This document shows, piece by piece, positions 4,316-44,401 of a stretch of 44,401 nt of DNA (position 1 is the stretch's first letter; each line of letters opens with the position of its first letter). The DNA lies in IMG/VR virus record IMGVR_UViG_3300046516_000558, positions 1 to 44,401 of that record. One strand, written 5' to 3'. The notes beneath the pieces were generated by a model. That model searched no databases, had not been told where the DNA came from, and saw only the letters and a list, made by a program, of their open reading frames with translations. The DNA comes from a virus. The translations under genes were made by a program, and so were the position numbers.

Positions 4316-4321
4316 GACGGG

Positions 4322-5358: not shown

Positions 5359-5367
5359 GAGAAGCTC

Positions 5368-7340: not shown

Positions 7341-7776
7341 CCGCGTCGTGCTCAATGAGAGGTCCATCGTCCCAGCTTATGATGATTTTGGTCGGGCCGC
7401 CAAGCGCAAGCGTCGGTGGGGAGGATTGAGTGGATGGGGCAAGCGGATGATCCTGGAATTGACGGGTCTGACTGACCTTCGACGCAGCCCACTCCCGGCG
7501 ACGGTCGTCGTCGTCCTTGAAGGCTCTCGCATACTCGTGATGAACCTTGTCGTTCAGAAGAGAGACAAGCTCCTGGTGAAGCCGGGTGAGACGCGGGCTG
7601 CGCCGGATTACGCGAACGAGACGGAGCGGCTCAACCTTCAGGGTTTGGGAGGCGAGCGCAATCTCCCCCTCGGCAAGGTAAAGCGCGGTCGCCGCCTCCT
7701 CGACGTCAATAGGGGTGGTCGAAGGACGCTGGTCGTACGAGTAATAGGGGAGGGGAAGAAACTCATCCTCGATCAT
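7333..7776 (-). CDS. Terminase small subunit (putative)
   Basis: A 147-residue protein, first gene of the late arm and immediately before the large terminase, as expected for the DNA-recognition subunit. Residues about 24-70 (VEEAATALYLAEGEIALASQ, then VEPLRLVRVIRRSP) form a helix-turn-helix-like segment as in other small terminases; the C-terminal third is Pro/Ser/Thr-rich. The ATG lies only about 25 nt from the AT-rich divergent promoter region. Identification rests on position and the HTH-like pattern; sequence conservation in this family is low. Confidence 0.7.
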   Translation of the reverse strand: MIEDEFLPLPYYSYDQRPSTTPIDVEEAATALYLAEGEIALASQTLKVEPLRLVRVIRRSPRLTRLHQELVSLLNDKVHHEYARAFKDDDDRRREWAASKVSQTRQFQDHPLAPSTQSSPPTLALGGPTKIIISWDDGPLIEHDADG

Positions 7777-7779
7777 GTG

Positions 7780-7815
7780 GATTGCCCGATTTTTGATGTA
7801 TTATATTTTAGCCCA
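7780..7815. promoter_or_regulatory. AT-rich divergent promoter region
   Basis: An AT-rich island between the two arms, conspicuous in GC-rich surroundings. On the minus strand it holds a perfect TATAAT (7805-7800) placing a start site about 17 nt before the late-arm ATG, but no good -35 box at 16-18 bp, so late transcription may need an activator. On the plus strand TTGCCC (7782-7787), 16 bp and TATTTT (7804-7809) form a possible promoter. Between here and 8075 I see GGGGCCCC (7908-7915) and the tandem element below, but no convincing gene. Confidence 0.4.
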
Positions 7816-7974
7816 ATTGCTCGGTCGCTACCATCCCCAGTACCGGAACTAGAAGTGACCGGGCGGAGGGGGGCTTCAAGGATCTCGCCCACCCACGACA
7901 CGACGAGGGGCCCCGCTCATCCATTGCATGAACGCCGCAGCGTCGAGCTCGTGCGTCACATTAACTCTCACGCA

Positions 7975-8031
7975 TTAACAAGGACTGCGACAAGGACTGG
8001 CATTGACAAGGACTGCGACTAGGACTATGTG
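7975..8031 (+). promoter_or_regulatory. Tandem promoter-like element ahead of the early arm
   Basis: Two copies with a 28-bp period. The second is TTGACA (8003-8008), the 17-bp spacer AGGACTGCGACTAGGAC and TATGTG (8026-8031). The first is TTAACA (7975-7980) with almost the same 17-bp spacer. Closely related elements occur at 9811 and 11245. Perfect -35 boxes and fixed 17-bp spacing indicate sigma-70-type promoters; conservation of the spacer suggests an additional regulator. Confidence 0.6.
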
Positions 8032-8063
8032 TTGGACGCGCGCCCATCATGCGCGCCAACATA

Positions 8064-8075
8064 GGAAAGCATGCC
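8064..8075 (+). promoter_or_regulatory. Recurrent GGAAAGCATGCC ribosome-binding module
   Basis: A Shine-Dalgarno followed directly by GCATGCC and the start codon. The same module precedes 8371, 9867, 10192, 11302 and 14115. Here it identifies GTG 8076 as the start rather than the in-frame ATG at 8049. Confidence 0.65.
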
Positions 8076-8303
8076 GTGACAACTCAGACCCTATTGCTCA
8101 ACGCCTATCGCGCGCGCCTCATTGCGGATCATGCATGGGCCAAGGATGAAGCACGACTGGCGCGCTACATGATTAGCGTCCAGCGCACATTGCAAGGCGA
8201 AAACACAATCGATCGAACCGGCGAAAGCTTTCGCGCCGCGTGCCACGATGTCGGACTATCGCCGCGCATAACACTCAAGGCGCTTCACGCGCTTCCGCGC
8301 TGA
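8076..8303 (+). CDS. First early-arm gene, unknown function
   Basis: A 75-residue basic protein (VTTQTLLLNAYRARLIADHA...). The GTG start is chosen because the recurrent GGA-x3-GCATGCC ribosome-binding module ends directly in front of it; an in-frame ATG 27 nt upstream lacks any such site. The C-terminal part (ACHDVGLSPRITLKALHALP) could be a short helix-turn-helix. As the first gene behind the tandem early promoter, it may act early in host takeover; that is inference. Confidence 0.6.
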   Translation: MTTQTLLLNAYRARLIADHAWAKDEARLARYMISVQRTLQGENTIDRTGESFRAACHDVGLSPRITLKALHALPR

Positions 8304-8314
8304 TCGCGAGCTAC

Positions 8315-8336
8315 TGCCAGCGCTGCGGCGCTGGCA
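8315..8336 (+). terminator. Hairpin (attenuator- or terminator-like)
   Basis: A perfect 9-bp stem TGCCAGCGC / GCGCTGGCA with a TGCG loop, 12 nt after the 8303 stop. There is no T-run after it, so it may act as an RNA-stability or attenuation element rather than an intrinsic terminator. Confidence 0.45.
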
Positions 8337-8359
8337 TTGGCGCGCAATCACGCGCGATC

Positions 8360-8370
8360 GAGAGCATGCC
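8360..8370 (+). promoter_or_regulatory. GCATGCC ribosome-binding module
   Basis: GAGAGCATGCC ends directly before ATG 8371; same module as at 8064 and four other early genes. Confidence 0.55.
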
Positions 8371-8832
8371 ATGCCTATGACAGCCGAAGATGAACACGAG
8401 CTCACCCAATGGCTCGAAGCACGCCCATTCTCATTCGATGACCTCGAAGGCAACCCGGAGCCCGAGAAATGGGGGTCGATCTATGACATCAAACGCCAAC
8501 GCGGCAAAACCATCAGCGAAGTGGTCCGCGCCAAGCAACTGTCTGAACTCCACGCGTTCGCCAGCCGTGGCAAATGCCACGTCAACATCAAAGCCGATCT
8601 TAAATACAAATATAGCTCCGCCAAAGCCAACGCAGCTGCGAGAGCCGCGTTTCACGCTCAAGCCGCCGCCGACCGCCGCGCATGGGCAGCCGGAACGCTC
8701 ACGATCGACCGTCCCGGCTTCAGCGGCAATATCGTCGCGGCTTATGAGCAAGCGATGGCCGCGAAGCGCGCCCGCCTCGCGCGCAAGCCTCATTACCTGC
8801 TCCGTGACGGCCAATGGCGGTTAGCGGCATGA
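8371..8832 (+). CDS. Early protein, unknown function
   Basis: A 153-residue protein, acidic at the N-terminus (TAEDEHELTQWLEARPFSFD) and basic, Ala/Lys/Arg-rich in the second half, which is mostly predicted helix. It has the GCATGCC ribosome-binding module and its stop overlaps a tiny hydrophobic ORF (ATGA at 8829). No family recognised. An opposite-frame reading over the same span lacks a ribosome-binding site and is a shadow. Confidence 0.7.
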   Translation: MPMTAEDEHELTQWLEARPFSFDDLEGNPEPEKWGSIYDIKRQRGKTISEVVRAKQLSELHAFASRGKCHVNIKADLKYKYSSAKANAAARAAFHAQAAADRRAWAAGTLTIDRPGFSGNIVAAYEQAMAAKRARLARKPHYLLRDGQWRLAA

Positions 8833-8888
8833 TGCTCGCCGCCGCGCTCGCCTTCGCGGTCTGGGCAATTGCCGCAGGCTACGTATAA
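8829..8888 (+). CDS. Possible 19-residue hydrophobic peptide
   Basis: ATG overlaps the stop of the preceding gene (ATGA) and reads 19 codons, MMLAAALAFAVWAIAAGYV, a single hydrophobic stretch able to span a membrane. The overlap matches the coupling used throughout this genome, and two other tiny coupled membrane ORFs occur at 24543 and 25884. At this length it could be chance. Confidence 0.3.
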   Translation: MMLAAALAFAVWAIAAGYV

Positions 8889-9101
8889 ATCAGAAAGGCG
8901 GTCGGCCGCGCCACACGCCGCCGCCGCCGCCGCTTGGAGATCAGATTTGGGCCTCCGGGCCGTCTCAACTTTCACTCGCTTAAGGCCTCTACATTTGAAC
9001 TTTTTGCAGTCCCACAACTATTCAACCGGCAAAAGCGGCATACCCGTTCTAAGTGTATCGCCTAGGCTTACCTCCTTCTCTTCTCAGGCGCGTAATGTCT
9101 C
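8889..9101. other. Non-coding stretch before the HTH gene
   Basis: I see no supportable gene here. It starts with a run of GCC triplets, becomes AT-richer towards 9000-9170, and leads into the promoter at 9102-9130. Reading frames crossing it have no ribosome-binding site. Confidence 0.5.
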
Positions 9102-9130
9102 TTGACTCTGCAAAGGAGTGAATTTAATTT
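9102..9130 (+). promoter_or_regulatory. Promoter for the HTH-protein gene
   Basis: TTGACT (9102-9107), a 17-bp spacer and TAATTT (9125-9130). The predicted start site is about 40 nt before ATG 9177. The sequence AGTCAA near 9136-9141 is the reverse complement of the -35 box, giving an inverted repeat TTGACT...AGTCAA that could be an operator. Confidence 0.5.
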
Positions 9131-9176
9131 GATGAAGTCAACTTAAAACCTACGAAACGCTTTCAGGAGTTTTAAC

Positions 9177-9830
9177 ATGGAAAACCCGGAACATAATCCC
9201 AATGAGGAGTTGTGGAGGCTGGCGCGCGACGATGCGCACCTTGGCGGGCGAAAACTGAAGTTTAGCACGCAATGTGCGGCTTTTGCGGCGGCCTATGCGG
9301 GCGTCCAATCAAACGTAATCGGCCTCGCCTTCGGAATATCGCCTCAGACCGTTTCCTACATTTCAGGTTGCCTTGAGCGTGATCCTGAACCGTATCGCTA
9401 TCCCATCGCCAAGGAAAACGACGACGACGCCACTCGGCCCTCGCGGCCTGAGCCGCACGACCACAATGCGCGGCGCAATCCCAATCGCTATCGGCGCTAC
9501 GAAGCCGTCGCGCGCGAATTCGAAGCGCTTGGCAGCGTCGAATTCACCAATCGGTATATGACCCCGCACAATCTGGAAAAGATCAAATCAGCGCGCCGGC
9601 GGCTAGCGGACATGAAGAGGCTAGGGACATGGGGTAATAAGCGCGCCCATAAGGACGGCTTCCCTGTCAAAGATGGGCTTCCCGATTTCGAGCGCATGAG
9701 CAACGAGCAAACGCTAGCGTGGCGTCACGCCAACCCGCAAAAATATCGCGCCATGTTTCCTGAACACTTCGAAAACGGAAACAATGGGTTTTATGGAGAT
9801 AATCGCCCCATTGACAAGGACCGCAACTAG
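9177..9830 (+). CDS. HTH-domain protein, putative regulator
   Basis: A 217-residue protein. Residues about 30-66 (CAAFAAAYAGVQSNVIGLAF, then GISPQTVSYISG) fit a helix-turn-helix: a helical lead, a 'V-x-x-L-A-x-x-F-G-I-S-x-x-T-V' turn and a recognition helix. The rest is charged, with acidic and Arg/Asn-rich linkers. It has its own promoter and an AGGAG Shine-Dalgarno. The protein at 12308 has a similar arrangement (HTH followed by a YRY motif), so the two may be distant paralogs. A regulatory role in the early arm is inferred. The last codons overlap the next promoter element. Confidence 0.7.
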   Translation: MENPEHNPNEELWRLARDDAHLGGRKLKFSTQCAAFAAAYAGVQSNVIGLAFGISPQTVSYISGCLERDPEPYRYPIAKENDDDATRPSRPEPHDHNARRNPNRYRRYEAVAREFEALGSVEFTNRYMTPHNLEKIKSARRRLADMKRLGTWGNKRAHKDGFPVKDGLPDFERMSNEQTLAWRHANPQKYRAMFPEHFENGNNGFYGDNRPIDKDRN

Positions 9831-9839
9831 GACTAGGTT
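9811..9839 (+). promoter_or_regulatory. Promoter-like element, second copy
   Basis: TTGACA (9811-9816), the 17-bp spacer AGGACCGCAACTAGGAC and TAGGTT (9834-9839). The spacer matches that at 8009-8025 at 15 of 17 positions. It overlaps the 3' end of the HTH gene and precedes the 9867 gene. Confidence 0.55.
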
Positions 9840-9854
9840 CATGTCATCGAAACC

Positions 9855-9866
9855 AAGGAGCATGCC
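9855..9866 (+). promoter_or_regulatory. AAGGAGCATGCC ribosome-binding module
   Basis: Canonical form of the recurrent module, directly before ATG 9867. Confidence 0.65.
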
Positions 9867-10133
9867 ATGTCCGCTGAACAGCGATATATAAACCGTCTCA
9901 ATCGACAGGCTGACGAGCACAATAAAACGCTTGGCCGCACCATGACCCGCCGTTTCACCATCCGTTTCAATAACGGTTCGGACCATGCCGAGCATGATTG
10001 GCTTGTGCTCGAAAATGGTCATTTCGTCACCGGCTTTGCCGGCAGCAACGCCGCCGAGCGGTTTGTTCAGGACGCCGAGGCTGAGTCGCGCATCGAGGCC
10101 TGCGTCTCGCGCGCCGCCGTCTCAACCGGCTGA
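9867..10133 (+). CDS. Small early protein, unknown function
   Basis: An 88-residue protein starting MSAEQRYINRLNRQADEH. The middle (TRRFTIRFNNGSDHAEHDWL) looks like paired beta strands, followed by a helical segment. It is preceded by the promoter at 9811 and the AAGGAGCATGCC module, which fixes the start. No family recognised. Confidence 0.7.
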   Translation: MSAEQRYINRLNRQADEHNKTLGRTMTRRFTIRFNNGSDHAEHDWLVLENGHFVTGFAGSNAAERFVQDAEAESRIEACVSRAAVSTG

Positions 10134-28798: not shown

Positions 28799-29607
28799 TA
28801 CGCGCTCCTCAGATTGCTCAAGGTATTGAAGAACCCACTGTTATCATACCCGCCCGCGCCCTTCGTCCCGCCGCTGGGATGCGCCGCCATGAAGGCGTTC
28901 ATCACGCTTGGAACGCCGAGCGGCTGACTCGCCGGCACCGCGGCCCCGACCTTCATCGGCGGCCCAGGGTTCGACAGCGCGTCGAGATAATCCTGGCGCG
29001 TATCGGGCGGCGACGGCGGCGTCGGAGCCTGCTGCGGAGCGCCGCCCTGCGCCTGCAGCCGCTGGATCGTCAGGGCGTTATTGGTCATCTGGTCGCGCTG
29101 GGCCGCGCTCAGAGGACCGCTGTTGCCGGATCCGAACCCGCTCGAACCCCCTTGCGGGTAGGCTTGGATGTTCTGGTCCTGCGACTGAATGTAATCTATC
29201 AGAGGGGCATTGGGATTGTTGGCCATAGCTTGGCCGGCGGGCGAGGCTTGGTAGTTGGCCGTGAGCTCGCTGATCGCCGGTCCCCATTGCCCCAAGGCGC
29301 TTTGTTGCGCTTGTGGCAACCCGGTCGAGTTCAACGTCGTCGTCCCTGGCGGCGGCGTCTGGTTGGGATTGAAGGACGCGAGCTGGGTCTGATAGGCCGC
29401 CTGCTTCGCGGCGTTGGCGTCGACAAAGCTTTGGATCGGCTTGCCGTAGGCGTCCGTGGGCGGCATGTTCCCGCCCGACTGCCCGGTATAAAAGCCCGGA
29501 AGCTTCAGCGGCTTACCCGCATAGGCGGGATTGATGTAGGGGTTCGGCTGCATCATGCCGAGCAGCCCCATGTCGAGGATCGGGTTGTCGCTGCCGCTGT
29601 CAGCCAT
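28798..29607 (-). CDS. Virion protein candidate, Pro/Gln-rich
   Basis: A 269-residue protein rich in Pro, Gln, Asn and Gly, with a short helical region around 105-180 (SALGQWGPAISELTANYQAS). No motif is recognised. It starts within the last codons of the hydrolase gene and ends at the next start. Composition and position indicate an internal or tail-associated protein. Confidence 0.6.
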   Translation of the reverse strand: MADSGSDNPILDMGLLGMMQPNPYINPAYAGKPLKLPGFYTGQSGGNMPPTDAYGKPIQSFVDANAAKQAAYQTQLASFNPNQTPPPGTTTLNSTGLPQAQQSALGQWGPAISELTANYQASPAGQAMANNPNAPLIDYIQSQDQNIQAYPQGGSSGFGSGNSGPLSAAQRDQMTNNALTIQRLQAQGGAPQQAPTPPSPPDTRQDYLDALSNPGPPMKVGAAVPASQPLGVPSVMNAFMAAHPSGGTKGAGGYDNSGFFNTLSNLRSA

Positions 29608-30907
29608 AATAGCCGCCTATCGAATTTAGAGTGGTCCCTCGTCCGGGATATTGCTGCCCCGCCACCGAGCCGTAAGGCGTCGAAGTCCACGACAGCGGCC
29701 GCGCCGCCGCCTGCGACACCGCCTGGAACATCTGGCTCGACGGCCCCGCCATGCCCGCCATCGGGTCTTGGACCGGAGCAAAGGTGGCCGGCTGGGGCGC
29801 AGCGGCTTGTTGCTGTCCCCCCGGAGGCTTAAAGCTGTTCGCCAGGTTCTCGAGCGGAGATTTGGCTTGCACTTCGTTGCCGTTGGCATCCTTCGTCGGC
29901 GGCGGACGGGTGAAGAGCTTCTTGAACAAGTCGCCGGCGTTCTGCGGCGGCGCGGCGGCGGTCGCGTCAGGCGGCTGTGGGTTGACCGTCGAGCCGCGCG
30001 CCTGGGCTGATGGGTCCATCACACCCGGGGCGGCCGTGATCGGCTGGCCGCTCTTAATCCAGTTGGCGGCATAGGCGTCGCCCTTCCACGGCGAAACGCC
30101 GCCGGTCTTCATCTGGTCGAGCGCGAACCGATCGGCCGCCTGCCATTGGTTTGGATCGCGCGGATCGACGCCGGCCTTGAGCGCGTCGACGCCCATGCCG
30201 TTGCGGGTGTTCAGCTGGAAGTCGCCAAACGACCACGGCACGCCCGCGGTGCGATCGACGTAGGAGGCCGCGTTCGGGTTCTGAGCGGACCAGGCGCGCA
30301 AGCCCTCGGCGTTGGCGATCCCCACGGCCAGATCGGGATTGACCCCTATCTTTTGCGCGTAGTCGCGGATGAACTGTTCGTGCGTCTCGTTACCGGACTG
30401 CCGGGCGGCGATCGAAGCCCGCGAGCCGGTGCCGCGGTTGAGGAGGTTCGCTGGCTGATGGGAGACTGGGGCGTCGGCCTCCATGTTCATCGCATACTCG
30501 CTGGGAACGTTCGGAACTTGGCTCCACGGCGTCCCCGCCGGCTCCGCGGCCGCTTCCTGCTGCCAGTTCGCCAGCTCGACATGATTGGGATCGCCGTGGA
30601 TCGCCCGCAACCCAACTTCCGGGGCGAGCCGCTCGAGTTCGGATTGCGGGATGCCCGTGACATCGCTGGCGACGCCGTATTGATGCGGAGAATAACCCGG
30701 GGCCGCCGCCGCGCGCGGGCCGCCTGGCTTGCCGAGCTGGCTGTAAAGATCGGCCTGCGATTGGCCCTTCATCCCCGGCCAGCCGTAAGCGCTGCGCACG
30801 CCTGAGATGAGGTTGGGAGCGTACCCCTCCGCCTTGGCGCGGGCCAGCAGCTTATCCAGCCGGTCCTGAAATGCGGGATCGAACCCAGTGTAGACGACGT
30901 TAGCCAC
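29600..30907 (-). CDS. Two-domain peptidoglycan hydrolase (M15 peptidase plus lysozyme-like)
   Basis: A 435-residue virion-type hydrolase. Residues 10-115 form an M15-type D-Ala-D-Ala carboxypeptidase/endopeptidase: SPHQYGVASD supplies the zinc ligands His75 and Asp82, and His109 lies in GDPNHVEL, the usual third ligand. Residues about 160-290 (QFIRDYAQKIGVNPDLAVGI...GDFQLN) resemble a transglycosylase/lysozyme-like fold with a candidate Glu in IANAEGL. The rest is Pro-rich and disordered. Together the two domains would cut both the peptide and the glycan of peptidoglycan during DNA entry. Two activities in one internal virion protein is an efficient arrangement; activities are inferred. Confidence 0.75.
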   Translation of the reverse strand: MANVVYTGFDPAFQDRLDKLLARAKAEGYAPNLISGVRSAYGWPGMKGQSQADLYSQLGKPGGPRAAAAPGYSPHQYGVASDVTGIPQSELERLAPEVGLRAIHGDPNHVELANWQQEAAAEPAGTPWSQVPNVPSEYAMNMEADAPVSHQPANLLNRGTGSRASIAARQSGNETHEQFIRDYAQKIGVNPDLAVGIANAEGLRAWSAQNPNAASYVDRTAGVPWSFGDFQLNTRNGMGVDALKAGVDPRDPNQWQAADRFALDQMKTGGVSPWKGDAYAANWIKSGQPITAAPGVMDPSAQARGSTVNPQPPDATAAAPPQNAGDLFKKLFTRPPPTKDANGNEVQAKSPLENLANSFKPPGGQQQAAAPQPATFAPVQDPMAGMAGPSSQMFQAVSQAAARPLSWTSTPYGSVAGQQYPGRGTTLNSIGGYYG

Positions 30908-33321: not shown

Positions 33322-35117
33322 CAGCGGTCGCCTCTCACAACTGAGTCGACCAGATGCTGGCCAACAGTCCACGGCAGAACCGGCGAGGCCGTCACCTCAA
33401 TCTTGAGCCGGATGTCGCGCCCCGTGGTCCGGAAGTCGACGAAACCGTCGTCGCGTACCGGGCGCGGCGCTGTCTGCAGTTCGGGCGCGCCCGTCGAGCG
33501 GCTGTTCCGATAAAACAGCGAGTAGCGCAGATTATCGACGCCGCCCTCGACATCGGGCATCATCTGCTTGACGGTGATCAGCCGCGCGCCGTTGGTCAGG
33601 TTGAGGTCGAACGTCTCGGCAAACGGCAGCTGCGCCCCGTTGTAGAACTGACCGAGCTCGTGCTCATACGCGACCACGCCGTCGGCCATGATCGTCTGCG
33701 CGGTGAAAGAGGCGGTGATGCCGGCCGAGCGCGACATCCTCCCTTGCGACCACCATCCCTCTTTGTAGCAGTAGATTACGCAGCGGGTGTTGTAGGGCTG
33801 GCCGAGCTGCGGAAAGAACCACCAAATCTCATTGAAATTGCCGACATGCACCATGCATGCCTGCTCGCGCACGTTGACGAGGTCGATGTCGTCGTCGATC
33901 CAGGCTCGCACCTTGCAAGCGACCGGCAGCATTGAAGTGCCGTCGTATGAAAACAGCCCCTGCTGCGAGAACCAAACCACCATCTCTGACGTCGTGATGA
34001 TGCTCTCGGGCGACCACGGCGTACAGTTCGCGCCCAGTTCGACGTAATTGTAAACGTAAGGGATGCCTAAGAAATTAGAGACGTAGGCTTTGTGAGCCGT
34101 GAAAAAAACCGTTCCGTTCCTGGTGGCGATCGCCGCAACGATCGGGCTCGCCGGCTCGATGTCGAGGAAGCCAGCTTGCGAAGTGACGTTGGAAAAATCC
34201 CAGGCATGGTAATTTTCCTGATCGCACCAGCCGAACCTCCGGAAGCTGCCTTGGCCCAGCGTCCCGTCGTCGACCATGCCGAAGATGACGACGAACCGTT
34301 CCTGGGTGACGACAAACAATCTCCCACGCGGAGCGACGCCCGTGCCGGTGTCGTCGCTGGTGACCTCGGTCATCGCCGCGGGCGCAACGCCGGTGCCGCC
34401 GCCGCTGGGATCCCACTCGAGCAGCCGCCCGTCGGGGCTGGTCATCGCCAGCAGAACCTGGCCGAAGTTGGCGAGCGACCAGGCGTTCGGCAGACGATCG
34501 ATCGGGATCAGGCTCGAGGGCCGCGGCTCGCTGTAGGCGCTGAACATCAGCGCATCGCCTGCCCCGGCGCTATCGATCGCCGCGCCGGCGGCTAGAGTGA
34601 CCGTCGTGCCGTCAAAGGCCGCAACCATCCCCACCAAGGGAGGATCGTCGGCCGGCCCGATGGTCATATCGAACACGCTCATGCCGGGCCAAATTAGGCC
34701 CAGATCGGTCGTCACCGGAATGTCGACGGATCCCGCGGCAAACCCCGCCGTCGCGGCGAATATGGCCCCCGCGCTGTAGACGCCGTCGCTATAGCCGCCT
34801 TCGCCCACCGGCAGCGGCGCGATCATGCCGTCGACCGGCGTGATGTCGGTCAGAACGCCGCCGATGTCGACGTAGATGTTGGTTTCGCACAGGTAGGCGA
34901 TGTAGTGGATGCCGTCGAGTCCATACCAGCCGTGGACCTTGCGACAGCGCGAGGCGAACGCCGGATAGGCGTACTGAGCTTGGCCGCCGACCGGAGCGAG
35001 TTGCCCCTCGACCCAGCGACACAAATTGACCTCGGCCCAGTTCGAGCTCCTCATCTTCTTCGTCGCCGTGGCGACCACGCCAGGCGGTATTTCGAGAGGA
35101 CGAAATTGCGTGGACAT
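33321..35117 (-). CDS. Tail nozzle / P22 gp10-like tail protein (putative)
   Basis: A 598-residue beta-rich protein. The opening (PLEIPPGVVATATKKMRSSN...NLCRWVEGQLAPVGG) and repeating aromatic strands fit the propeller-like tail nozzle proteins of short-tailed phages (P22 gp10, 'packaged DNA stabilization'). It would close the tail channel below the adaptor. The start has AAAAGGT about 9 nt upstream, part of a palindrome shared with the divergent HNH gene. Assignment rests on fold pattern, size and position. Confidence 0.6.
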   Translation of the reverse strand: MSTQFRPLEIPPGVVATATKKMRSSNWAEVNLCRWVEGQLAPVGGQAQYAYPAFASRCRKVHGWYGLDGIHYIAYLCETNIYVDIGGVLTDITPVDGMIAPLPVGEGGYSDGVYSAGAIFAATAGFAAGSVDIPVTTDLGLIWPGMSVFDMTIGPADDPPLVGMVAAFDGTTVTLAAGAAIDSAGAGDALMFSAYSEPRPSSLIPIDRLPNAWSLANFGQVLLAMTSPDGRLLEWDPSGGGTGVAPAAMTEVTSDDTGTGVAPRGRLFVVTQERFVVIFGMVDDGTLGQGSFRRFGWCDQENYHAWDFSNVTSQAGFLDIEPASPIVAAIATRNGTVFFTAHKAYVSNFLGIPYVYNYVELGANCTPWSPESIITTSEMVVWFSQQGLFSYDGTSMLPVACKVRAWIDDDIDLVNVREQACMVHVGNFNEIWWFFPQLGQPYNTRCVIYCYKEGWWSQGRMSRSAGITASFTAQTIMADGVVAYEHELGQFYNGAQLPFAETFDLNLTNGARLITVKQMMPDVEGGVDNLRYSLFYRNSRSTGAPELQTAPRPVRDDGFVDFRTTGRDIRLKIEVTASPVLPWTVGQHLVDSVVRGDR

Positions 35118-35125
35118 TATCCGAT

Positions 35126-35141
35126 ACCTTTTCTAAAAGGT
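35126..35141. promoter_or_regulatory. Palindrome supplying Shine-Dalgarno sequences to two divergent genes
   Basis: ACCTTTT-CT-AAAAGGT is a perfect inverted repeat in the 29-bp gap between the divergent starts at 35117 (minus) and 35147 (plus). Read on either strand it offers AAAAGGT at a workable distance from the start codon. Confidence 0.55.
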
Positions 35142-35146
35142 CGAGT

Positions 35147-35506
35147 ATGCCCTTCCAGCCCGGCGTTAAAACTCGTCTCAAACACGGCCACACCAACGCC
35201 CGTGAGAATACCGCAACCTACTGGAGTTGGCGGGCTATGAAGCTCAGGTGTCTCAACCCGAACTATCATGCCTTCCACCGCTACGGTGGACGCGGGATTA
35301 AAATCTGCGACCGTTGGCTCCACTCGTTTGAAAACTTCCTTGCCGATATGGGTGAACGCCCCGTTGGCCTGACCATCGACCGCGAAGACAAGGACGGCAA
35401 CTACGGCCCCGAAAACTGCCGCTGGGCAACCCGTAAGGAACAAGCGAACAATCGAAGCGATAGAAGGTGGACGCATCGCAATTCACCTACTGGTAACGAA
35501 TTATGA
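35147..35506 (+). CDS. HNH-type homing endonuclease-like protein
   Basis: A 119-residue protein on the strand opposite to all neighbours. It has the hallmark sequence of a common phage mobile-endonuclease family: 'T-Y-W-S-W-R-A-M-K-x-R-C-x-N-P-N', 'Y-G-G-R-G-I-K-I-C-D-R-W', 'D-M-G-x-R-P', 'L/T-I-D-R-E-D-x-D-G-N-Y-x-P-E-N-C-R-W-A-T'. It starts 29 nt from the divergent nozzle gene and overlaps the 3' end of the collar fibre gene by 20 nt. It appears to be a free-standing mobile gene inserted between two tail genes. Whether it cleaves sister genomes is unknown. Confidence 0.8.
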   Translation: MPFQPGVKTRLKHGHTNARENTATYWSWRAMKLRCLNPNYHAFHRYGGRGIKICDRWLHSFENFLADMGERPVGLTIDREDKDGNYGPENCRWATRKEQANNRSDRRWTHRNSPTGNEL

Positions 35507-36224
35507 AGTTGATCCCGATCCAGGGCGGCATGTTGTTGTGGCCGTCGCCGTCGCCGGCAGGATTAGTAGAGGCGAATGCGGTGATGCCGGTGCCGTTGTA
35601 CTGGATATCCGCGTTTCCGTTTGCGATGCTTATGCCGGTTTGGTTGCTCCCGGTGAATTGGCCTCCATCGCCAAGGGCCGTCCCTGTTGCGCCCGCAGTT
35701 GGAGAGGCGTTTTGGCGGAAAACATCAGGATGGTTGTGGCCCGGGTCGTTGACGAAGTGACTATGACCGGCATCCGAATGGTTATGGCCGGGATCGCTGA
35801 TGCTGACGAACGCGTCATGATCGTGCGTCGCGAGCTCCCCCCAGGTGAGGCTATGGTTCACCTCGCCGCCCGTGTCTCCCGCGCCGAAGCCAACTCCGCC
35901 GCCGACGTCGCCCGTTCCGATCGGAAATCTTCCCCGCATATCCGGCACGGCGTTCGATATGCCCGGGACCCCGCCGTAGGCATTGTTGAGGATCGGCGCG
36001 AGCAACGGAATATAGCTATTTGGATAAACCGTCCCATCGCAGAGCACCCAATTATCTGGCGGCGTACCCCCGGCGAACATGGTGATCTCGCCAATGACTA
36101 TGGCGTCGAAAACCTTGCTGTCGATCAGGTCGAGATCGGCGTTGAGCTTCACGCCCCAAGTCGTCGGCGAGCCGCTGATGTCGGGCTTAACCCAGTGGTA
36201 GTTGGTGGTGATCGTGTCGGCCAT
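35487..36224 (-). CDS. Tail-collar fibre protein, His-rich
   Basis: A 245-residue protein. Residues 42-68 (IGEITMFAGGTPPDNWVLCD...) form the phage tail-collar domain signature, continued by NAVPDMRGRFPIGTGD. The second half has repeated HNH/HxH motifs (DPGHNHSDAGHSHFVNDPGH), similar to the iron-coordinating histidines in the needle of T4 gp37. It probably forms a trimeric receptor-binding tip. The last 20 nt overlap the HNH gene. The N-terminus (TNYHWVKPDISGSPTTWGVK) is a common attachment segment in tail fibres. Confidence 0.78.
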   Translation of the reverse strand: MADTITTNYHWVKPDISGSPTTWGVKLNADLDLIDSKVFDAIVIGEITMFAGGTPPDNWVLCDGTVYPNSYIPLLAPILNNAYGGVPGISNAVPDMRGRFPIGTGDVGGGVGFGAGDTGGEVNHSLTWGELATHDHDAFVSISDPGHNHSDAGHSHFVNDPGHNHPDVFRQNASPTAGATGTALGDGGQFTGSNQTGISIANGNADIQYNGTGITAFASTNPAGDGDGHNNMPPWIGINFIIRYQ

Positions 36225-36237
36225 CAGCAGCGCTCCA

Positions 36238-38949
36238 TCACAACGTAGTACAGTTAATTGTGATCACGCTATTCGGCGCAAAATTAACCGCTGCCGGGGT
36301 CGCCCCCACCGAATAATGGGCTATATCAATGAACCCATAATATATGTTGCCTGCGACGCCCAACATCACCGTGCGGGCATCAGGTCCATCACTCAAATCA
36401 TTGGCGTAACACGCCCAACCGTTGATCCCGTACGGCGGGCTCATGGTCACCCGAACTTGCGAAGTACATGCTCCAGTGCCGGTATTGACGGTGAAGCCAT
36501 TCCCGCCATGGGTGAGCAACCCTAGGGTAGCCCCGCAACCCCCAGAAACAGCGGTTGGCGGATCCGTTTCAATATTTCCAAACGCCTTATAATGTCCCGC
36601 GCCATCGGCGGTGTTTATCCACCCAGCAGTACCTCCCGGCACGGGGCCTTGGTTGAAATGAACGTCGCCCTGCTTGTGCCAACTCTCTGTCGGAATGCCA
36701 AACCCTTCATCAAATAGGCGCTCTGTGCCAATGCCACCGCCGCCAAGCGCGTGGTCATTCAGCAGAAACCCCTGCGGGAAATTAACCATCGCCAAGCCGG
36801 TTTGATATCCGGCGTACTTGTCGTACTCAGTGAGCCACATCGGATGGCCGCCAGCGACGCCGAAATAGAGATAAGCCCACGCCCCAAGGTCGCCGCGCCA
36901 TTGAAGATCCCACACGTTGCCGCCGCCACCGCAGCCAGCACTGTCATGCGACCACTTGAACACGTCACCCGGCTGGTTCAGGCACAGGTCAACCCCGTCA
37001 GAACCAGAGAAACTCCAGTCATTAAAAAACTTGCCATTAAACGACGTAGGCGCGCCAGTAGGAACGCCAGCAATCGGGTTCCAAAACACAACATTGCCTC
37101 CCGGCGAAGTCGCTACGCCGATCCCGTTGGCGCAATATCCTCCGCTGCTGGGGGCGTAACCGCCATAGAAACTGCTCGAATTAGAATTGACGCAGAAACC
37201 AATGATCCCATAAATTGAAGTGCTGTCCTCCTGACTATTGGCATTCTCCGCGAGATAGTTTGACCCGACCGACCCAAGCTCGGCAACGTCGGCAATAGTG
37301 CTGTACGCATACACATTCATGATCGACATGCTCGCGCCAGAATTATCGCCCAGCACAAGACGCCCAATCATATTCCTGTAAAATACGTTCTCCTGCGCCA
37401 GCGATCCATTGCAGCCGGCGATCGGCGTCCCCCACGCCGAACACTCCATCTCCAAGCCCCACGCAAACCCTGAAAAATAGTTTGTGTGCAAGCTGGTTTG
37501 AACGAACGTCTTTAGCGCGGCGGGGAGTATCCACATCTTGCCGCCGGTTTCCGATTTGGTCGCGGGCGTCTCGTTGTTGTAGTCCATATGCCATGGACCC
37601 GTAACGACGGTTTGAGCGCCAAGCGTACCACTCACGTTAATGATCGGAGTTCCGAACGGGAAAGCATCAGACCAGATGTAATCTCCCGGCCTCAACAGAC
37701 TTGGGCCACCCGTCACAGTGATCGTACCGCTGCCGTTTGTTGTGTTGACTGTGAAAGCCTTCTCTACTGGAAGCCTCAATACAAACGAAGCATTGCCCGT
37801 ATAAGTAGACACAACGGGAGTGCTAAGAGTTATTGTCTGCGCCCCCGAGTTGACAGCGGTAATGGTGGAACCGGCGGGGACGGCTGGCGTGCTATTAGCC
37901 GGGCCATACAAATAGACAATAACGCCATCCCCAACCTCGAAATCCCAAACACCAGGGTTCCAGAGAGGGTCACCTACGTGAATAGTGGGGTTAGAACCAG
38001 TCGTTACGGGAAAATCCCCATGCACTCCCTTGCTGTAGACGCCGCAGCTCGTCATTCCGCCGCCGCCCATGCCGCTGCCATCGGGCGACGTGCCGTAGTT
38101 GTCGAAGACGACGCCATGCACGCCGGCAGGGAACATCAACCGGGTCGAGGTGTCGCCGCCGCCGTTCGGCACCCCTTCGCATCGGAGGTTCATGAGGCGG
38201 TAGATGTGAAACGGCTGCGAGAAATAATAGTCGGTGTATCGCCGTCCTATTTTGGCCGGGAACCACACGTCGGATTGACTGCCCTGGGTGTTCGCCGGGT
38301 TAACCAAAGTCATCAACGTGGCGTTCAGCGTGGAGTTATCGAACACGCCATCGCCAACCATGCCGATTTGCCGAACGTCGATGCCATGGTCGAGTTGCAA
38401 AAGGTACCGGCCCGGCGTGCCCGGGTCTTGGCCGATTGGCAAAACGCAAGCGATGCCGTCAGCCGGGATCGGGCTTCCGCTATCGCCAATCTGGCAAAGA
38501 GAAGTCAGGCTCCACTGGTAGGTTGCCGCGCCGCCGTCGCCGGGAGCATAGAAGCCCTGCTGCTGAACCGTCCACGCCTCAGTTGGCGTCGTGACGTTGT
38601 TCACCAAGCCAGAATGCGAAGTGTAGATCGTGAGCTGACTGGAGCCGCCGCCGCCGCCGCCGCCGCCGCCACTTCCGCACGCCGCCCCGGCGCTGGTAAT
38701 GCCCGGGCCCCATTTCAGGCAATCGTTAGGCGCGATCGAGCCATTGGTGCCGGGGGCAAAAATGTGGGTCGAGGGATCGACCGAACCGAATGGCGTCCAG
38801 GCGTTGTCGTGGCCCTTGAGCTTGAAGACGTCAGGCGTTCCCTTGGAGATGCCGACATCGGCAGGCGACGGCGCGGTCTGGGCGTGAGCGCAGATCGCCG
38901 CCAGTCCGAGAGCAAGGCTTAACAGAACCCTTCGCAGCATCACTCTCAC
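36238..38949 (-). CDS. Tailspike / large tail fibre with signal peptide
   Basis: A 903-residue protein. It opens with an apparent Sec signal peptide (VMLRRVLLSLALGLAAICAH, AQ next), continues with a nine-Gly run near 93-101, and then a tailspike segment ('D-V-R-Q-I-G-M-V-G-D-G-V-F-D-N-S') typical of the start of a right-handed beta-helix (pectate-lyase-type) domain. It probably recognises or degrades host surface polysaccharide. The GTG at 38949 overlaps the previous stop (GTGA); ATG 38940 is an alternative. A signal peptide on a virion spike is surprising because assembly happens in the cytoplasm. Confidence 0.7.
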   Translation of the reverse strand: MRVMLRRVLLSLALGLAAICAHAQTAPSPADVGISKGTPDVFKLKGHDNAWTPFGSVDPSTHIFAPGTNGSIAPNDCLKWGPGITSAGAACGSGGGGGGGGGSSQLTIYTSHSGLVNNVTTPTEAWTVQQQGFYAPGDGGAATYQWSLTSLCQIGDSGSPIPADGIACVLPIGQDPGTPGRYLLQLDHGIDVRQIGMVGDGVFDNSTLNATLMTLVNPANTQGSQSDVWFPAKIGRRYTDYYFSQPFHIYRLMNLRCEGVPNGGGDTSTRLMFPAGVHGVVFDNYGTSPDGSGMGGGGMTSCGVYSKGVHGDFPVTTGSNPTIHVGDPLWNPGVWDFEVGDGVIVYLYGPANSTPAVPAGSTITAVNSGAQTITLSTPVVSTYTGNASFVLRLPVEKAFTVNTTNGSGTITVTGGPSLLRPGDYIWSDAFPFGTPIINVSGTLGAQTVVTGPWHMDYNNETPATKSETGGKMWILPAALKTFVQTSLHTNYFSGFAWGLEMECSAWGTPIAGCNGSLAQENVFYRNMIGRLVLGDNSGASMSIMNVYAYSTIADVAELGSVGSNYLAENANSQEDSTSIYGIIGFCVNSNSSSFYGGYAPSSGGYCANGIGVATSPGGNVVFWNPIAGVPTGAPTSFNGKFFNDWSFSGSDGVDLCLNQPGDVFKWSHDSAGCGGGGNVWDLQWRGDLGAWAYLYFGVAGGHPMWLTEYDKYAGYQTGLAMVNFPQGFLLNDHALGGGGIGTERLFDEGFGIPTESWHKQGDVHFNQGPVPGGTAGWINTADGAGHYKAFGNIETDPPTAVSGGCGATLGLLTHGGNGFTVNTGTGACTSQVRVTMSPPYGINGWACYANDLSDGPDARTVMLGVAGNIYYGFIDIAHYSVGATPAAVNFAPNSVITINCTTL

Positions 38950-39245
38950 CCGACGTAATAGTAGATTGCGACCACGTCGTCGCCCGGCGAAACCGAATAT
39001 TCCGTACTGAGCCAGGTGATCGCGTTGCCCGACACCGAGAAGTCCGGCGGCGACCCAACGTTATTGAAACCTCGCCCATTGACCATCAGCGTGATCGGAT
39101 TGGGCCACGGCGTCTGCGACAGCGGCGCGAGCAAATTGACGCTCGTCACCGAAAGGGGTTCAGAGAAGGGCAGCAAGAAATCTCCTCCCGCTCCAGAGCA
39201 CCCGGCGACCGGCGTCCATTGGTTGAAGATGACAAGCTCAGTCAT
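38946..39245 (-). CDS. Small beta-rich protein, unknown function
   Basis: A 99-residue protein beginning MTELVIFNQWTPVAGCSGAG; alternating strands and few charges, like a small virion or adaptor domain. Both ends overlap neighbours (ATGA and GTGA). It lies between a secreted small protein and the spike, so it may be a fibre accessory. Function unknown. Confidence 0.6.
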   Translation of the reverse strand: MTELVIFNQWTPVAGCSGAGGDFLLPFSEPLSVTSVNLLAPLSQTPWPNPITLMVNGRGFNNVGSPPDFSVSGNAITWLSTEYSVSPGDDVVAIYYYVG

Positions 39246-39586
39246 TTCTTCTTCGTCGCGCCTACATCAAAGCCAACCGGCGTCGTAGCGTTGATCGCTG
39301 CTGTCGCGGCTACCGTGTTCTGGAAGCTAGTGACGTTGTTGGCGGTGCCTTGCAGCATCGCCTTGGCCCACGCGGCTTCGGCCTCAACGAGAACCGTCGT
39401 GCATGTCGTCGCAGGAGGGACGGGCGTGCATTTGTAGGCCGTCTGCAGCCACGCCTCGAATTTCTGCTGGTCAGTGTCCGAGAGCGTCCACGTTTCGGAC
39501 GTCGTCCCGACGCTGACGGTGATCGTCGTCCCAGCAAGCGCCGGAAGCGGAACCAGAAAGAGAGCGGCGACAAGCAGATTTTTCAT
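39242..39586 (-). CDS. Small secreted protein in fibre region
   Basis: A 114-residue protein with a clean signal peptide: MKNLLVAALFLVPLPALAG, cleaving after ALA. The mature part (TITVSVGTTSETWTLSDTDQ...) is small, with two Cys and a KKK end. The ATG is 2 nt after the previous stop. A longer in-frame reading from 39997 is a shadow over the fibre gene. Export is predicted from the sequence; role unknown. Confidence 0.65.
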   Translation of the reverse strand: MKNLLVAALFLVPLPALAGTTITVSVGTTSETWTLSDTDQQKFEAWLQTAYKCTPVPPATTCTTVLVEAEAAWAKAMLQGTANNVTSFQNTVAATAAINATTPVGFDVGATKKK

Positions 39587-39588
39587 CT

Positions 39589-41127
39589 TCAATACCCCAT
39601 GCATTTCCACGAGATTACATTGCTCGCAGCGGTTGAAGTGCCTGCAACGGTGAACGTCGCCCCCGTCGTCGTAGATGCCGTTTGCTGGATAAGCGCCGCC
39701 GGAAGAGTTCGATCCGTAGCGTCGCAAGCGTAGCCGGTCGCCGTCGCGGGCATTCCGGTGAGAGCTATGGTGTTGCCGGCGGCGCAGACCGCCGAGGTTT
39801 GGAAAGTGCCCGCGAGCGCGCCGCCTACTGTCGTGCCAGCAGCGCAAGTACCGCCAGACCCAGTAACGGTCGGCTTGGTTCCAACCGAAGTGAGGGAAGG
39901 TACCTGAAAATTGGAGCCGCTGATTTGCACCGGGCGCAACGTGCCAGTCCCATTTTTGACTGACCCGATAGTCAGAACATTGGCCGTCGTTCGCCAATCA
40001 AGCGCACCCCATTCGCCGTTGGAAATATCGGTAAAAGTGTTGTAGACGCGAAAAGCAGACGCTGTAGTGGGAGCACCATAACTAGCAACTGAAACGGTCC
40101 ACGGCGATGCTGCGGGCATAATGTCCCACGAGCCATCCCCTAGAAATCCTCCGGTAACTTGCTGGCCGCCTGTAATAAAAGTATTGCCGTTAAATGAACT
40201 TGCGTAAAGATTATTAGCGACTGACGCATTATTTGCACTTTGTACGAGCGACCCGTCACTCATCAACAAATAGCCGGCAGATATTCCGCTCGTCGGCGTG
40301 GACCCGGCAGTAATAGTCCCTCCGCCACTCCCCGCCCCGCCATCCACCAGGCCGCCCGCAGCCCACTTCACATAGTTGCCCGCCGTCGGCACCGCGCTGA
40401 CCAGCGCCACACCGCCGGCCGCGTTGGCGTTCAAAGCGACGGCAGCTTGCACCCCCGCCCCGAACGCCTGATATGCCGGGTTGGTGTTCACGCCGCCGGA
40501 TTTCAGGTACGAGCCCGTCGCAACATCGGCCAGGCCAGTCGGAGCTACGCCGCTGCCACTGCCTATCTCGATGGAACCCGCGACAAGAGAGGCTGTCGTC
40601 GCTGTGCCGATACCGCCATTGGTGTTGGGCGCGACGCCCAAGACAGCGTTAACGCCCGCGCCGGTCGTGATGGTGCTTGGGGCAACGCCCGCGCCGCCGC
40701 CAACCATGAGCGCATTGGCCGCCAGGAGCGCGCTCGAGGACATCTGAGTGGTGGAGTTGAAATAAGCGACGCCGCCGCTGTTCACCGTTCCAGACACGGT
40801 CTGCGGCAGGACAATCGACGTGCTCGAGGCCGAGCAGCCGAGCACACCCGCGTTGTTGTAGAGGAACTGCCCACTGGGACAGGTTCCGGTGACCGGCGTC
40901 GTTCCGCCAACGAGTGAGCCGCCCCCGCCGCCGCCCGACAGGCAAAGCTTGCCGGTGGTGTCGATCGTCGGAAAGGCCACGCCACCAACGGCGTCGGGCC
41001 CAAATGGCGCAAGCGAGCCGCACGCCGTGACAACGCGCGCCTGCTGCGCCTGCGCCGGCAGCTCATCGAAGGCCGGCAGCGCAGAAAGGGCGAGGCCGAA
41101 GAAGGCCGCGAGAAGACGACGTCTCAT
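39589..41127 (-). CDS. Tail-fibre-like Gly/Ala/Ser/Thr-rich protein with signal peptide
   Basis: A 512-residue protein. After a signal peptide (MRRRLLAAFFGLALSALPAF...AQAQ) comes a short Cys-containing motif ('V-V-T-A-C-G' and 'T-T-G-K-L-C-L'), a run of Gly, then long low-complexity Gly/Ala/Thr/Val text (GGGAGVAPSTITTGAGVNAV) typical of trimeric fibre shafts, and a C-terminal part containing two Cys pairs. I start at ATG 41127 because GAGGG stands about 6 nt upstream; ATG 41139, overlapping the previous stop, would add 4 residues. Fibre identity is by composition and position. Confidence 0.6.
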   Translation of the reverse strand: MRRRLLAAFFGLALSALPAFDELPAQAQQARVVTACGSLAPFGPDAVGGVAFPTIDTTGKLCLSGGGGGGSLVGGTTPVTGTCPSGQFLYNNAGVLGCSASSTSIVLPQTVSGTVNSGGVAYFNSTTQMSSSALLAANALMVGGGAGVAPSTITTGAGVNAVLGVAPNTNGGIGTATTASLVAGSIEIGSGSGVAPTGLADVATGSYLKSGGVNTNPAYQAFGAGVQAAVALNANAAGGVALVSAVPTAGNYVKWAAGGLVDGGAGSGGGTITAGSTPTSGISAGYLLMSDGSLVQSANNASVANNLYASSFNGNTFITGGQQVTGGFLGDGSWDIMPAASPWTVSVASYGAPTTASAFRVYNTFTDISNGEWGALDWRTTANVLTIGSVKNGTGTLRPVQISGSNFQVPSLTSVGTKPTVTGSGGTCAAGTTVGGALAGTFQTSAVCAAGNTIALTGMPATATGYACDATDRTLPAALIQQTASTTTGATFTVAGTSTAASNVISWKCMGY

Positions 41128-41135
41128 TTCAACCC

Positions 41136-41282
41136 TCATGAACAAGTCTGCCCATTGGCGTTCTGCGTTTCATTCGCCGTCGATCCGGCCGGGTAGGACG
41201 CCGTGCCGCACGTCGCGACGACCGTGTTGCTCCAGGCCGGCCAAGCGAGAACTGCCAAAACTGCCAAAACAAGCCATCTCAT
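41136..41282 (-). CDS. 48-residue secreted peptide
   Basis: ATG overlaps the adaptor stop (ATGA) and reads MRWLVLAVLAVLAWPAWSNT, an apparent signal peptide, then a short mature part with two Cys (TCGTASYPAGSTANETQNAN). The mature part shares the 'V-V-x-x-C-G...T-x2-(D/N)-x2-G-x-x-C' pattern with the N-terminus of the fibre protein at 39589. It is coupled at both ends. Function unknown. Confidence 0.55.
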   Translation of the reverse strand: MRWLVLAVLAVLAWPAWSNTVVATCGTASYPAGSTANETQNANGQTCS

Positions 41283-41905
41283 CCGAATGACCTCACTCTT
41301 GAGCGCACCACCCGCGAACCGCTGGCGCGCGACGTCAGATGCAGCGCGTTCAGCTTGTTGATTGTGTCCTCGGTCAGCTGCTTCGCGCCCATCGCCTTGT
41401 CCTCTTCGCCAACCGCGTGCAGGAAGGCGTGCATCATCGCCGCCGAGAGATAGAGGGACGGGTATTTCGTATAGACCCAGCTGTCTTGAATGTCGGAGAA
41501 GACCGGGACTTCGCCGTAATAGGTGATCAGCGTATTCTGCCCGTTAATTGAGTCGGGCGCGCCGCCGATGAACAGTTCTCGCCCCTGGATGGTGTAAAAT
41601 CCGTACATCCAATTGTCGGTGGTGGTGTAGAACTCGTCCCGGCTCTTGTAGCGGATCGGCAGAAATCCACTCGGAACGTTCGGGTTGGCGATCCGAACCA
41701 GTTCCATCGCCAGCCAATCATCCGGCAGCACAATGCATCGTCCGTTGATCAGAGCCTGACTGAACTTGATCATCCGGTCGACGCGCAACTCCGCATTCAG
41801 CTTCTGCTCCGCCTGGCGGACGAAGCCGACGACGATCGCATCCGCCCAATCTTGCCGATTGGAGTACTCCGCGATTTGCGCTTTAAAGTCAGCGAAGTCG
41901 GTCAC
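41279..41905 (-). CDS. Head-tail adaptor protein (SU10-type)
   Basis: A 208-residue protein. The beginning (DFADFKAQIAEYSNRQDWAD...FVRQAEQKLNAELRVDRMIK) matches the helical start of podovirus adaptor proteins ('I-x-x-x-x-N-R-x-D-x-A-D-x-I-x-x-F-x-x-x-A-E-x-x-x-N-x-E-L-R'). The middle has 'L-P-D-D-W-L-A-M-E', another family hallmark. It forms the ring between portal and tail. GTG start overlaps the previous stop. Confidence 0.78.
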   Translation of the reverse strand: MTDFADFKAQIAEYSNRQDWADAIVVGFVRQAEQKLNAELRVDRMIKFSQALINGRCIVLPDDWLAMELVRIANPNVPSGFLPIRYKSRDEFYTTTDNWMYGFYTIQGRELFIGGAPDSINGQNTLITYYGEVPVFSDIQDSWVYTKYPSLYLSAAMMHAFLHAVGEEDKAMGAKQLTEDTINKLNALHLTSRASGSRVVRSRVRSFG

Positions 41906-43283: not shown

Positions 43284-44306
43284 TTATTTCTGGATGCCGT
43301 TGAAAAGAATGTGCGCGAGCGCGTTGCGGACTTCGACGCCCCACTCGACCACAATCATCCGCGTCTCGGCGTCGCCCGTCCGCGCCATCAGATACTGACG
43401 GAAGCTCCGGAAAAACGCCACCGCCAGATAATCCGGATCAATCAGCAGCCCAACGTCAGGCGGAACCCAGCGCGATGGGATCACCTTGATCCTGCCGAAG
43501 TCGGTCGCGATCACGTCGACAGTCGAGACGACTTCCGTCTTCCCAACAAGGACTTGAGTGGTCGATCTTCCGACAAAGGTTGACACCGTGCGCTTCGGGC
43601 CCGGGGCGACAACCCACAGCGTCGGGCTCGCGCCGTTGCTGTACGCCTTCTGCATCGCGTCGCCCAACATCGCCTCGGTGATCGACACCGCAGCCGGCGC
43701 GGGGAAGAGATCGGTCGACAGCGTCGGCAGACCAGTGACCGCCGTTCCAGGCGCAACCGCTCCGCCAACGCCACCGCCCAGGCGCGGCGGGAGGACCGTG
43801 CGGCCGAGCCAGTGAGAGATGCCCTCAGTCACGCGAGCCGCGGGCCCGCTGTCGTTGCCGTCGATGCGCGGCTGACGGCTGCACATCGCGGTTTCCATGT
43901 CGGATTTCAAAACCTTCGACGCCATCGCCATCTGATGGCTCATCTCGGAGCCTTTTCCCGCAGCGTCCGACTCCTCTTGCGATCCCGAGATCGTCGCGTC
44001 GCGCTCGCTGATCTGAGTCACATTGTTCTGGCGGATCGTCGGCTGGGCGGAATGCGGAGCGAGCGCAAAGCCTTCGAACTGCGCATTCGTCAGCGGGTCC
44101 ATCGCGCCCGAACCCGGGACCACGCTGGGCGACACAGTCGGCAGAAACTCAGTCTGCCAGTCGAACAACCTGTTCTTCACGTTGCGCCGGCGAATGGCGC
44201 TCATCACCGGCGTGTCAAACGGATCAATATTGTAGATCACATTTGACAAGTCTTCTCTGTTCCCCACCGCGTTATACGTGGTGAAGGCGTTAGTAACCTT
44301 GGGCAT
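43284..44306 (-). CDS. Major capsid protein (SU10/DUF5309 type)
   Basis: A 340-residue protein. The N-terminus (NAVGNREDLSNVIYNIDPFD...TPVMSAIRRRNVKNRLFDWQ) is the signature of the DUF5309/SU10 major capsid family with HK97-like fold. It has palindromic GGGAG ribosome binding 7 nt before the ATG. The first 74 codons also occur at 1-223 with ten synonymous changes and one Ser/Thr exchange. It follows scaffold and is followed by a hairpin, in keeping with strong expression. Confidence 0.9.
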   Translation of the reverse strand: MPKVTNAFTTYNAVGNREDLSNVIYNIDPFDTPVMSAIRRRNVKNRLFDWQTEFLPTVSPSVVPGSGAMDPLTNAQFEGFALAPHSAQPTIRQNNVTQISERDATISGSQEESDAAGKGSEMSHQMAMASKVLKSDMETAMCSRQPRIDGNDSGPAARVTEGISHWLGRTVLPPRLGGGVGGAVAPGTAVTGLPTLSTDLFPAPAAVSITEAMLGDAMQKAYSNGASPTLWVVAPGPKRTVSTFVGRSTTQVLVGKTEVVSTVDVIATDFGRIKVIPSRWVPPDVGLLIDPDYLAVAFFRSFRQYLMARTGDAETRMIVVEWGVEVRNALAHILFNGIQK

Positions 44307-44401
44307 TGGGGAGCTCCCAGTTAGAGGATCCTACGGAACACTTCTGCGGCGTCGTCGAGACGTCCGCTGCTCGCCAAACGGCGTTGTGCTTCGTCGAGTC
44401 C
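44084..44401. repeat. Right copy of 318-bp terminal direct repeat
   Basis: Pairs with 1-318. It contains the first 223 nt of the full-length capsid gene, the intergenic ribosome-binding palindrome and the end of the scaffold gene. All 11 differences fall in capsid codons 11-66. Confidence 0.93.
44321..44401 (-). CDS. Scaffolding protein, C-terminal fragment (cut by window edge)
   Basis: The last 26 codons and stop of the scaffold gene, identical to 238-318 and cut by the right edge. It confirms that capsid is preceded by scaffold when the ends are joined. Confidence 0.85.
   Translation of the reverse strand, partial: GLDEAQRRLASSGRLDDAAEVFRRIL

Follow-up and report, generated by a model that had tools for sequence, protein, structure and literature searches.

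Sec-type signal peptides on four proteins in the fibre slot of an SU10-type podophage and on proteins of related viral loci

Tailed phages are taken to assemble wholly in the cytoplasm. Phage-encoded proteins that leave it are familiar from the Lom/Bor-type morons of lambda, which are Sec-exported and encoded in the neighbourhood of tail genes or of other late genes; of the two, Lom forms a barrel in the outer membrane, whereas Bor is a lipoprotein. In a bacterial virus from soil, we describe a block of five adjacent tail-locus genes, four of which open with Sec-type signal peptides, in the virus record IMGVR_UViG_3300046516_000558, whose full 44,401 nucleotides we call the window. Judged from sequence, the four products are very probably exported through functional signals; whether they serve as receptor-binding spikes or fibres and become part of the virion we regard as evenly balanced. 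An earlier reading of the DNA (the original prediction) had called good Sec-type signal peptides on these four products, and the call holds on the minus strand once the starts of two genes are corrected. The positions it gave, 36238, 39242, 39589 and 41136, pick out the right genes; the numbers are low ends, which on this strand are 3' ends.

The leaders are of a common kind. A K/R n-region, an h-region of 9-14 residues, an AxA-type site, and conservative drift are usual for Sec/signal peptidase I leaders; what is different here is that a tailed phage has them on proteins of its tail locus. The glutamine at +1 in most of them recalls the Q-rule of Bacteroidetes (PMC5837995), whereas the hosts here look alphaproteobacterial. 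The nearest precedent is the set of Q-rule signal-peptide genes noted in phages of Porphyromonas gingivalis (Nixviridae, PMC10367356): these likewise carry Sec leaders with +1 glutamine on phage genes, with a proposed use of host secretion, and comprise five genes of unassigned function, whose proposed role is to alter the outer membrane of the host. Unlike them, the genes described here stand in tandem in a receptor-binding slot and have leaderless counterparts in sister phages. With podophage spikes and fibres (collar-domain, epsilon15/phiV10) the block shares its tail-gene position, large mosaic proteins, and carbohydrate-active domains in relatives. It departs from them in its export signals and exported-type cysteine content; a good leader is absent from the tail fibre of phiV10, a cultured epsilon15-type phage, and from the tail genes annotated in Ochrobactrum phage OH. 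Unlike Lom and Bor, the four window proteins have neither a lipobox nor a membrane segment in the mature part, and they are mosaic and lie within the fibre slot itself. In an open literature library, which leaves most subscription journals outside, we found no paper on signal-peptide tail fibres as a system.

The window is a 44.4-kb podophage record with SU10-type capsid and adaptor proteins. On its minus strand, between the adaptor and a collar-domain fibre, lie sp4, sp3, sp2, nsp, and sp1, with short or overlapping junctions; signal peptides open every gene except nsp. The features are as follows.

41279..41905, minus strand: SU10-type adaptor/tail protein without a leader; upstream border of the variable block
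41136..41282, minus strand: sp4, predicted exported protein of 48 amino acids; a leader plus a short two-cysteine (VVxxCG...G..C) domain
41229..41282, minus strand: predicted signal peptide of sp4, MRWLVLAVLAVLAWPAWS, cut before N
39589..41127, minus strand: sp3, fibre-like protein of 512 amino acids, predicted exported; start ATG 41127
41047..41127, minus strand: predicted signal peptide of sp3, MRRRLLAAFFGLALSALPAFDELPAQA, cut before QQ
40930..41046, minus strand: two-cysteine "VVCG" domain of sp3, QQARVVTACGSLAPFGPDAVGGVAFPTIDTTGKLCLS
39242..39586, minus strand: sp2, protein of 114 amino acids, predicted exported, with 2 cysteines in the mature part; start ATG 39586
39533..39586, minus strand: predicted signal peptide of sp2, MKNLLVAALFLVPLPALA, cut before G
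38946..39245, minus strand: nsp, protein of 99 amino acids without a leader, with an FNQWTPVxxC motif
36238..38940, minus strand: sp1, spike-like protein of 900 amino acids, predicted exported, with 16 cysteines in the mature part
38881..38940, minus strand: predicted signal peptide of sp1, MLRRVLLSLALGLAAICAHA, cut before QT
35487..36224, minus strand: phage tail collar-domain fibre protein without a leader; downstream border of the block

The ATG of sp4 at 41282 overlaps the stop codon of the adaptor, and sp1 starts at ATG 38940 or GTG 38949. Two starts were moved: that of sp3 to ATG 41127 from an upstream TTG at 41145, and that of sp2 to ATG 39586, the open reading frame (ORF) as listed up to 39997 being an out-of-frame run into sp3. 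Behind its signal peptide, sp3 is laid out as a two-cysteine domain, a glycine-rich linker, a repetitive fibre region that is common to the related locus L010 (L numbers denote related loci and contigs), and a four-cysteine C-terminal domain.

All four leaders have the basic n-region, the hydrophobic core (9-14 residues, where 7-15 is the norm), and the small residues at -3 and -1 that mark Sec export and cleavage by signal peptidase I. None contains a lipobox ([LVI][ASTVI][GAS]C), and no membrane-length segment occurs in the four mature parts. We called leaders with a rule-based scorer that weighs n-region charge, hydrophobic core, the -3/-1 residues, and a non-hydrophobic mature start. It was positive at 0.3% of 2,019 internal methionine positions and on 0.6% of shuffled N-termini; against this background, four leaders in five adjacent genes are not a product of chance. 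When each leader was shuffled 2,000 times, the observed score was reached once for sp4, 35 times for sp3, never for sp2, and twice for sp1.

The pattern extends well beyond one genome. Scanning with the adaptor led to 47 viral loci with the same SU10-type adaptor, and 15 of them, the window counted, have one to four signal-peptide genes in the slot between adaptor and collar protein. Most of the remaining loci fill the slot with large leaderless fibre genes, mostly a single protein of 500-1100 amino acids. Slot contents are hypervariable between close relatives, as expected of spike or fibre genes at this place in a tail locus. Across the related loci, scorer-positive genes make up 29 of 172 in the slot against 10 of 393 elsewhere (Fisher test, 6e-9); most, though not all, of those 10 resemble small membrane proteins or wrong-frame ORFs, and 1 of the 29 is probably spurious. 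That one, the window ORF 35117-35476, was set aside; it lies opposite a plus-strand ORF, 35147-35506, within the minus-strand late region, which by eye resembles a small HNH/AP2-type endonuclease and has no Pfam match. The original prediction had seen in the leaders a consistent pattern rather than a single oddity; it was right, and the pattern takes in 15 of 47 loci and, as set out below, two other virus types.

Sequence change within the leaders follows the rules of signal peptides. Among four sp1 relatives, identity is 55-70% over the 20-residue leader, compared with 83-90% over the next 42 residues. Substitutions exchange R and K, replace hydrophobic or small residues with like ones, or fall at a free -2 position (H, V, Y, V); alanine is invariant at -3 and -1. 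Summed over the six pairs, nonsynonymous and synonymous codon differences number 44 and 22 in the leaders, and 31 and 59 in the mature N-terminal domain. Of 51 distinct leaders, 44 have an AxA↓Q-type site (the arrow marks the cut) close to the cut, whereas glutamine makes up only 3.5% of mature parts.

The cysteine content of the mature proteins points the same way. Gram-negative exported proteins favour even cysteine counts (PMC7678975). Here, the count is even in 46 of 50 exported mature proteins, none of which has a single cysteine, as against 29 of 79 leaderless block proteins and 50 of 111 proteins elsewhere. With one vote per full-length family, the corresponding counts are 26 of 29, 10 of 25, and 16 of 35. 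The mature parts of sp1, sp2, sp3, and sp4 have 16, 2, 8, and 2 cysteines, respectively. A LamG-like domain has 2-5 cysteines per copy behind leaders, compared with 0-1 in homologues that cultured phages encode without a leader. These counts support the view that the mature parts are adapted to an oxidising compartment.

Two modules are linked to the leaders. The first is a domain of 30-40 residues with two conserved cysteines (xVVxSCG...G..LTMD..G.LC), which stands directly behind an export signal in 17 of 17 occurrences in the first set of loci. The second is the N-terminal domain of sp1 (QTxPSPxxxGxxx...WxPxGSxDPSTHxF). This domain follows a leader in the window, L005, L009, L010, L012, L013, L016, L053, and L058; it occurs as well in relatives that have no leader, lying internally in fibre-like proteins of L004 and L008. 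Two exceptional relatives are informative. In L026, the slot reads nsp, a leaderless sp1 relative of 878 amino acids, and collar protein; the relative begins MQNPSPGALG, exactly at the glutamine predicted to start the mature protein, and reading upstream in frame soon meets a stop codon. With 16 cysteines, the same number as exported ones, this L026 protein (3616-6252) may have lost its leader recently. In L027, the gene at 8128-8928 has the two-cysteine plus SPRY-like architecture of Sec-exported relatives behind a Tat-like leader, MRRRDILGGIAALIPARALG (MRRRDILGG), in which we read by eye an RRx-hydrophobic-hydrophobic motif, a moderate h-region, and an AxA-type site. The L027 cassette includes a SASA esterase and a chitobiase-type domain; weak domain matches in other cassettes are arabinofuranosidase-like in L067 and pectate-lyase in L064.

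Scans with the two-cysteine module reached a wider set of contigs. In a second virus type (contigs of 42-98 kb), the late genes are followed by runs of two to five leader-bearing genes, which may be interrupted by leaderless ones. A third setting is L086, a 20-kb contig in which epsilon15-type capsid and connector genes are followed by five leader-bearing genes (3972-10118). By eye, some of the last genes of that run have BNR-like repeats; the contig ends in a leaderless ORF with a GH5 cellulase domain. Leaders, together with cysteine counts typical of folding outside the cytoplasm, are present in relatives from at least three virus lineages.

The hosts look alphaproteobacterial. GcrA is a cell-cycle regulator known only from Alphaproteobacteria, and it is encoded in all three sampled contigs of the second type (L087:14769-15251, L088:15162-15569, and L090:12842-13261). 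The window has 56 GANTC sites against 156 in mononucleotide shuffles, about one third; as weak evidence, this depletion fits an alphaproteobacterial host. Scans of genome collections with the two-cysteine module and the arabinofuranosidase-like domain gave no relatives, hence no prophage or named host, and no plasmids carrying relatives were found. Only distant cultured relatives of the adaptor were found; the best is Ochrobactrum phage OH, and no good leader occurs among its annotated late genes.

What the mature proteins do is a further matter. For sp1 and sp3 we infer the role of receptor-binding spike or fibre proteins on the virion, and for sp2 and sp4 that of small companions. Four observations favour this role: the position in the slot; the mosaicism of block proteins, whose C-termini are hypervariable, with carbohydrate-active domains in relatives (the SASA esterase and the weak pectate-lyase match); the leaderless L026 counterpart in the order nsp, spike, collar; and size complementarity, because no further large candidate for a spike exists at the locus in the window, L005, or L016. 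Under such a scheme, sp1-sp4 would be translated late and moved into the periplasm by the host Sec machinery; signal peptidase I would remove the leader, exposing glutamine, and host Dsb enzymes would form disulfides. Spike-less heads and tails would assemble in the cytoplasm with the adaptor, nsp, and collar proteins, none of which has a leader. Spikes that had been exported would join these particles as the envelope breaks at lysis, or would stay bound to the cell surface until then. Tailspikes or fibres attach in vitro to finished particles of other phages, such as P22, and attachment after lysis is therefore feasible. One option in the original prediction, that the proteins are exported and attach on release, is well supported as to export; as to attachment, it fits the evidence, and we infer assembly at or after lysis. 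Put more broadly, and held tentatively at rather less than even confidence, several lineages of tailed phages of probable Alphaproteobacteria may make their spikes in the periplasm, bonded by host-formed disulfides, and complete their virions only at lysis, with a portable module of leader plus two cysteines recruiting new binding domains.

Several results weigh against this account. AlphaFold models of sp1 and sp3 were unusable (mean predicted local distance difference test score, 31), and a spike fold was not obtained. The sole family hint for sp1 is PHROG 23059, a tail fibre family, at E = 0.06. A tblastn search with sp1, sp2, and sp3 against 50,697 phage records gave no match, and no cultured relative of the three was found. 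The L026 protein, though leaderless, equals exported proteins in cysteine content; under the loosest clustering, by any shared domain, even counts hold in 8 of 10 clusters (p = 0.11). Finally, the two-cysteine module spans unrelated virion types, which would be odd if it docked to one virion part. A profile search of the PDB returned no sequence match of note.

The best surviving alternative, and a possible one, is that the proteins are exported without joining the virion and act outside the cytoplasm, whether in the periplasm, at the cell surface, or in the surrounding medium. They might mask receptors (excluding superinfection, or keeping progeny off debris) or degrade exopolysaccharide and so free progeny. 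The evidence for export applies equally to such proteins; the carbohydrate-active domains in the cassettes (L027, with the weak matches in L067 and L064) would suit them, as would a two-cysteine leader module that crosses virion types and, in the epsilon15-type contig, a run of leader genes that comes after the capsid genes. Phage-encoded exported proteins are also known, for instance in Porphyromonas phages (PMC10367356). What speaks for spikes instead is that the genes occupy a hypervariable fibre slot, where they substitute for large leaderless fibres, that the same slot also houses leaderless proteins with the sp1 N-terminal domain, and that secretion into a non-virion role would leave the window, L005, and L016 without a large spike candidate at the locus.

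Membrane tethering, another option in the original prediction, would mean retention by an uncleaved anchor or as lipoproteins and is improbable. The sp1 relatives of L005, L016, and L013 do have Ser or Gly before a conserved leader cysteine, Cys17, in a weakly lipobox-like arrangement. In the window, however, Ile precedes Cys17, and none of the four leaders has a lipobox; the cores are of 9-14 residues, the mature parts have no membrane-length segment, and AxA↓Q-type sites are near universal.

The remaining option, re-use of the leaders as hydrophobic attachment peptides, which would stay uncleaved and dock the fibres to the virion in the cytoplasm, is more improbable still. Phage fibres usually attach to the particle by the N-terminus, and the leaders are indeed N-terminal. 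A docking peptide sits poorly, however, with a segment that is less conserved than the mature domain beside it and varies freely within signal-peptide grammar, cleavage rules and AxA↓Q-type sites included. Nor does it sit well with the Tat-like replacement in L027, the even-cysteine signature downstream, the L026 relative that starts at the cleavage point, or the same kind of leader in unrelated virion types. Chance hydrophobic N-termini or wrong start codons are scarcely credible: in the initial listing, two of the four ORFs did start too far upstream, but the 0.3-0.6% background and the short or overlapping gene junctions speak against this explanation, and conservation across many related loci already refutes it.

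If the exported-spike reading is true, Sec export and disulfide formation would make assembly a two-compartment process whose last step falls at lysis. Such spikes may misfold when expressed in a reducing cytoplasm, which matters for studies of receptor-binding proteins and for their assignment in metagenomes. Should the proteins turn out to be secreted without a place in the virion, they would make up a class of phage-secreted surface proteins that is widespread and so far unrecorded. Under both readings, the leaders are a simple, testable marker.

Other features of the locus and genome are of interest. In L005 and L026, too, the leaderless nsp is conserved and immediately precedes the spike gene. 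In many loci (L020, L024, L035, L040, and L048, for example), the first gene after the adaptor encodes a leaderless protein that starts with a W-x-P...C motif, possibly a peptide that binds the adaptor; the window nsp (38946-39245) resembles these proteins. Gene order runs round the ends of the record: the scaffold gene at the left end (1-1356) and the capsid gene at the right (43284-44401) are neighbours when the genes are read across the ends, which gives the record the look of a complete, circularly permuted genome, although it showed no end repeat. Within the internal virion protein region, the minus-strand gene at 29600-30907 has a marginal N-terminal match to a VanY-type peptidase.

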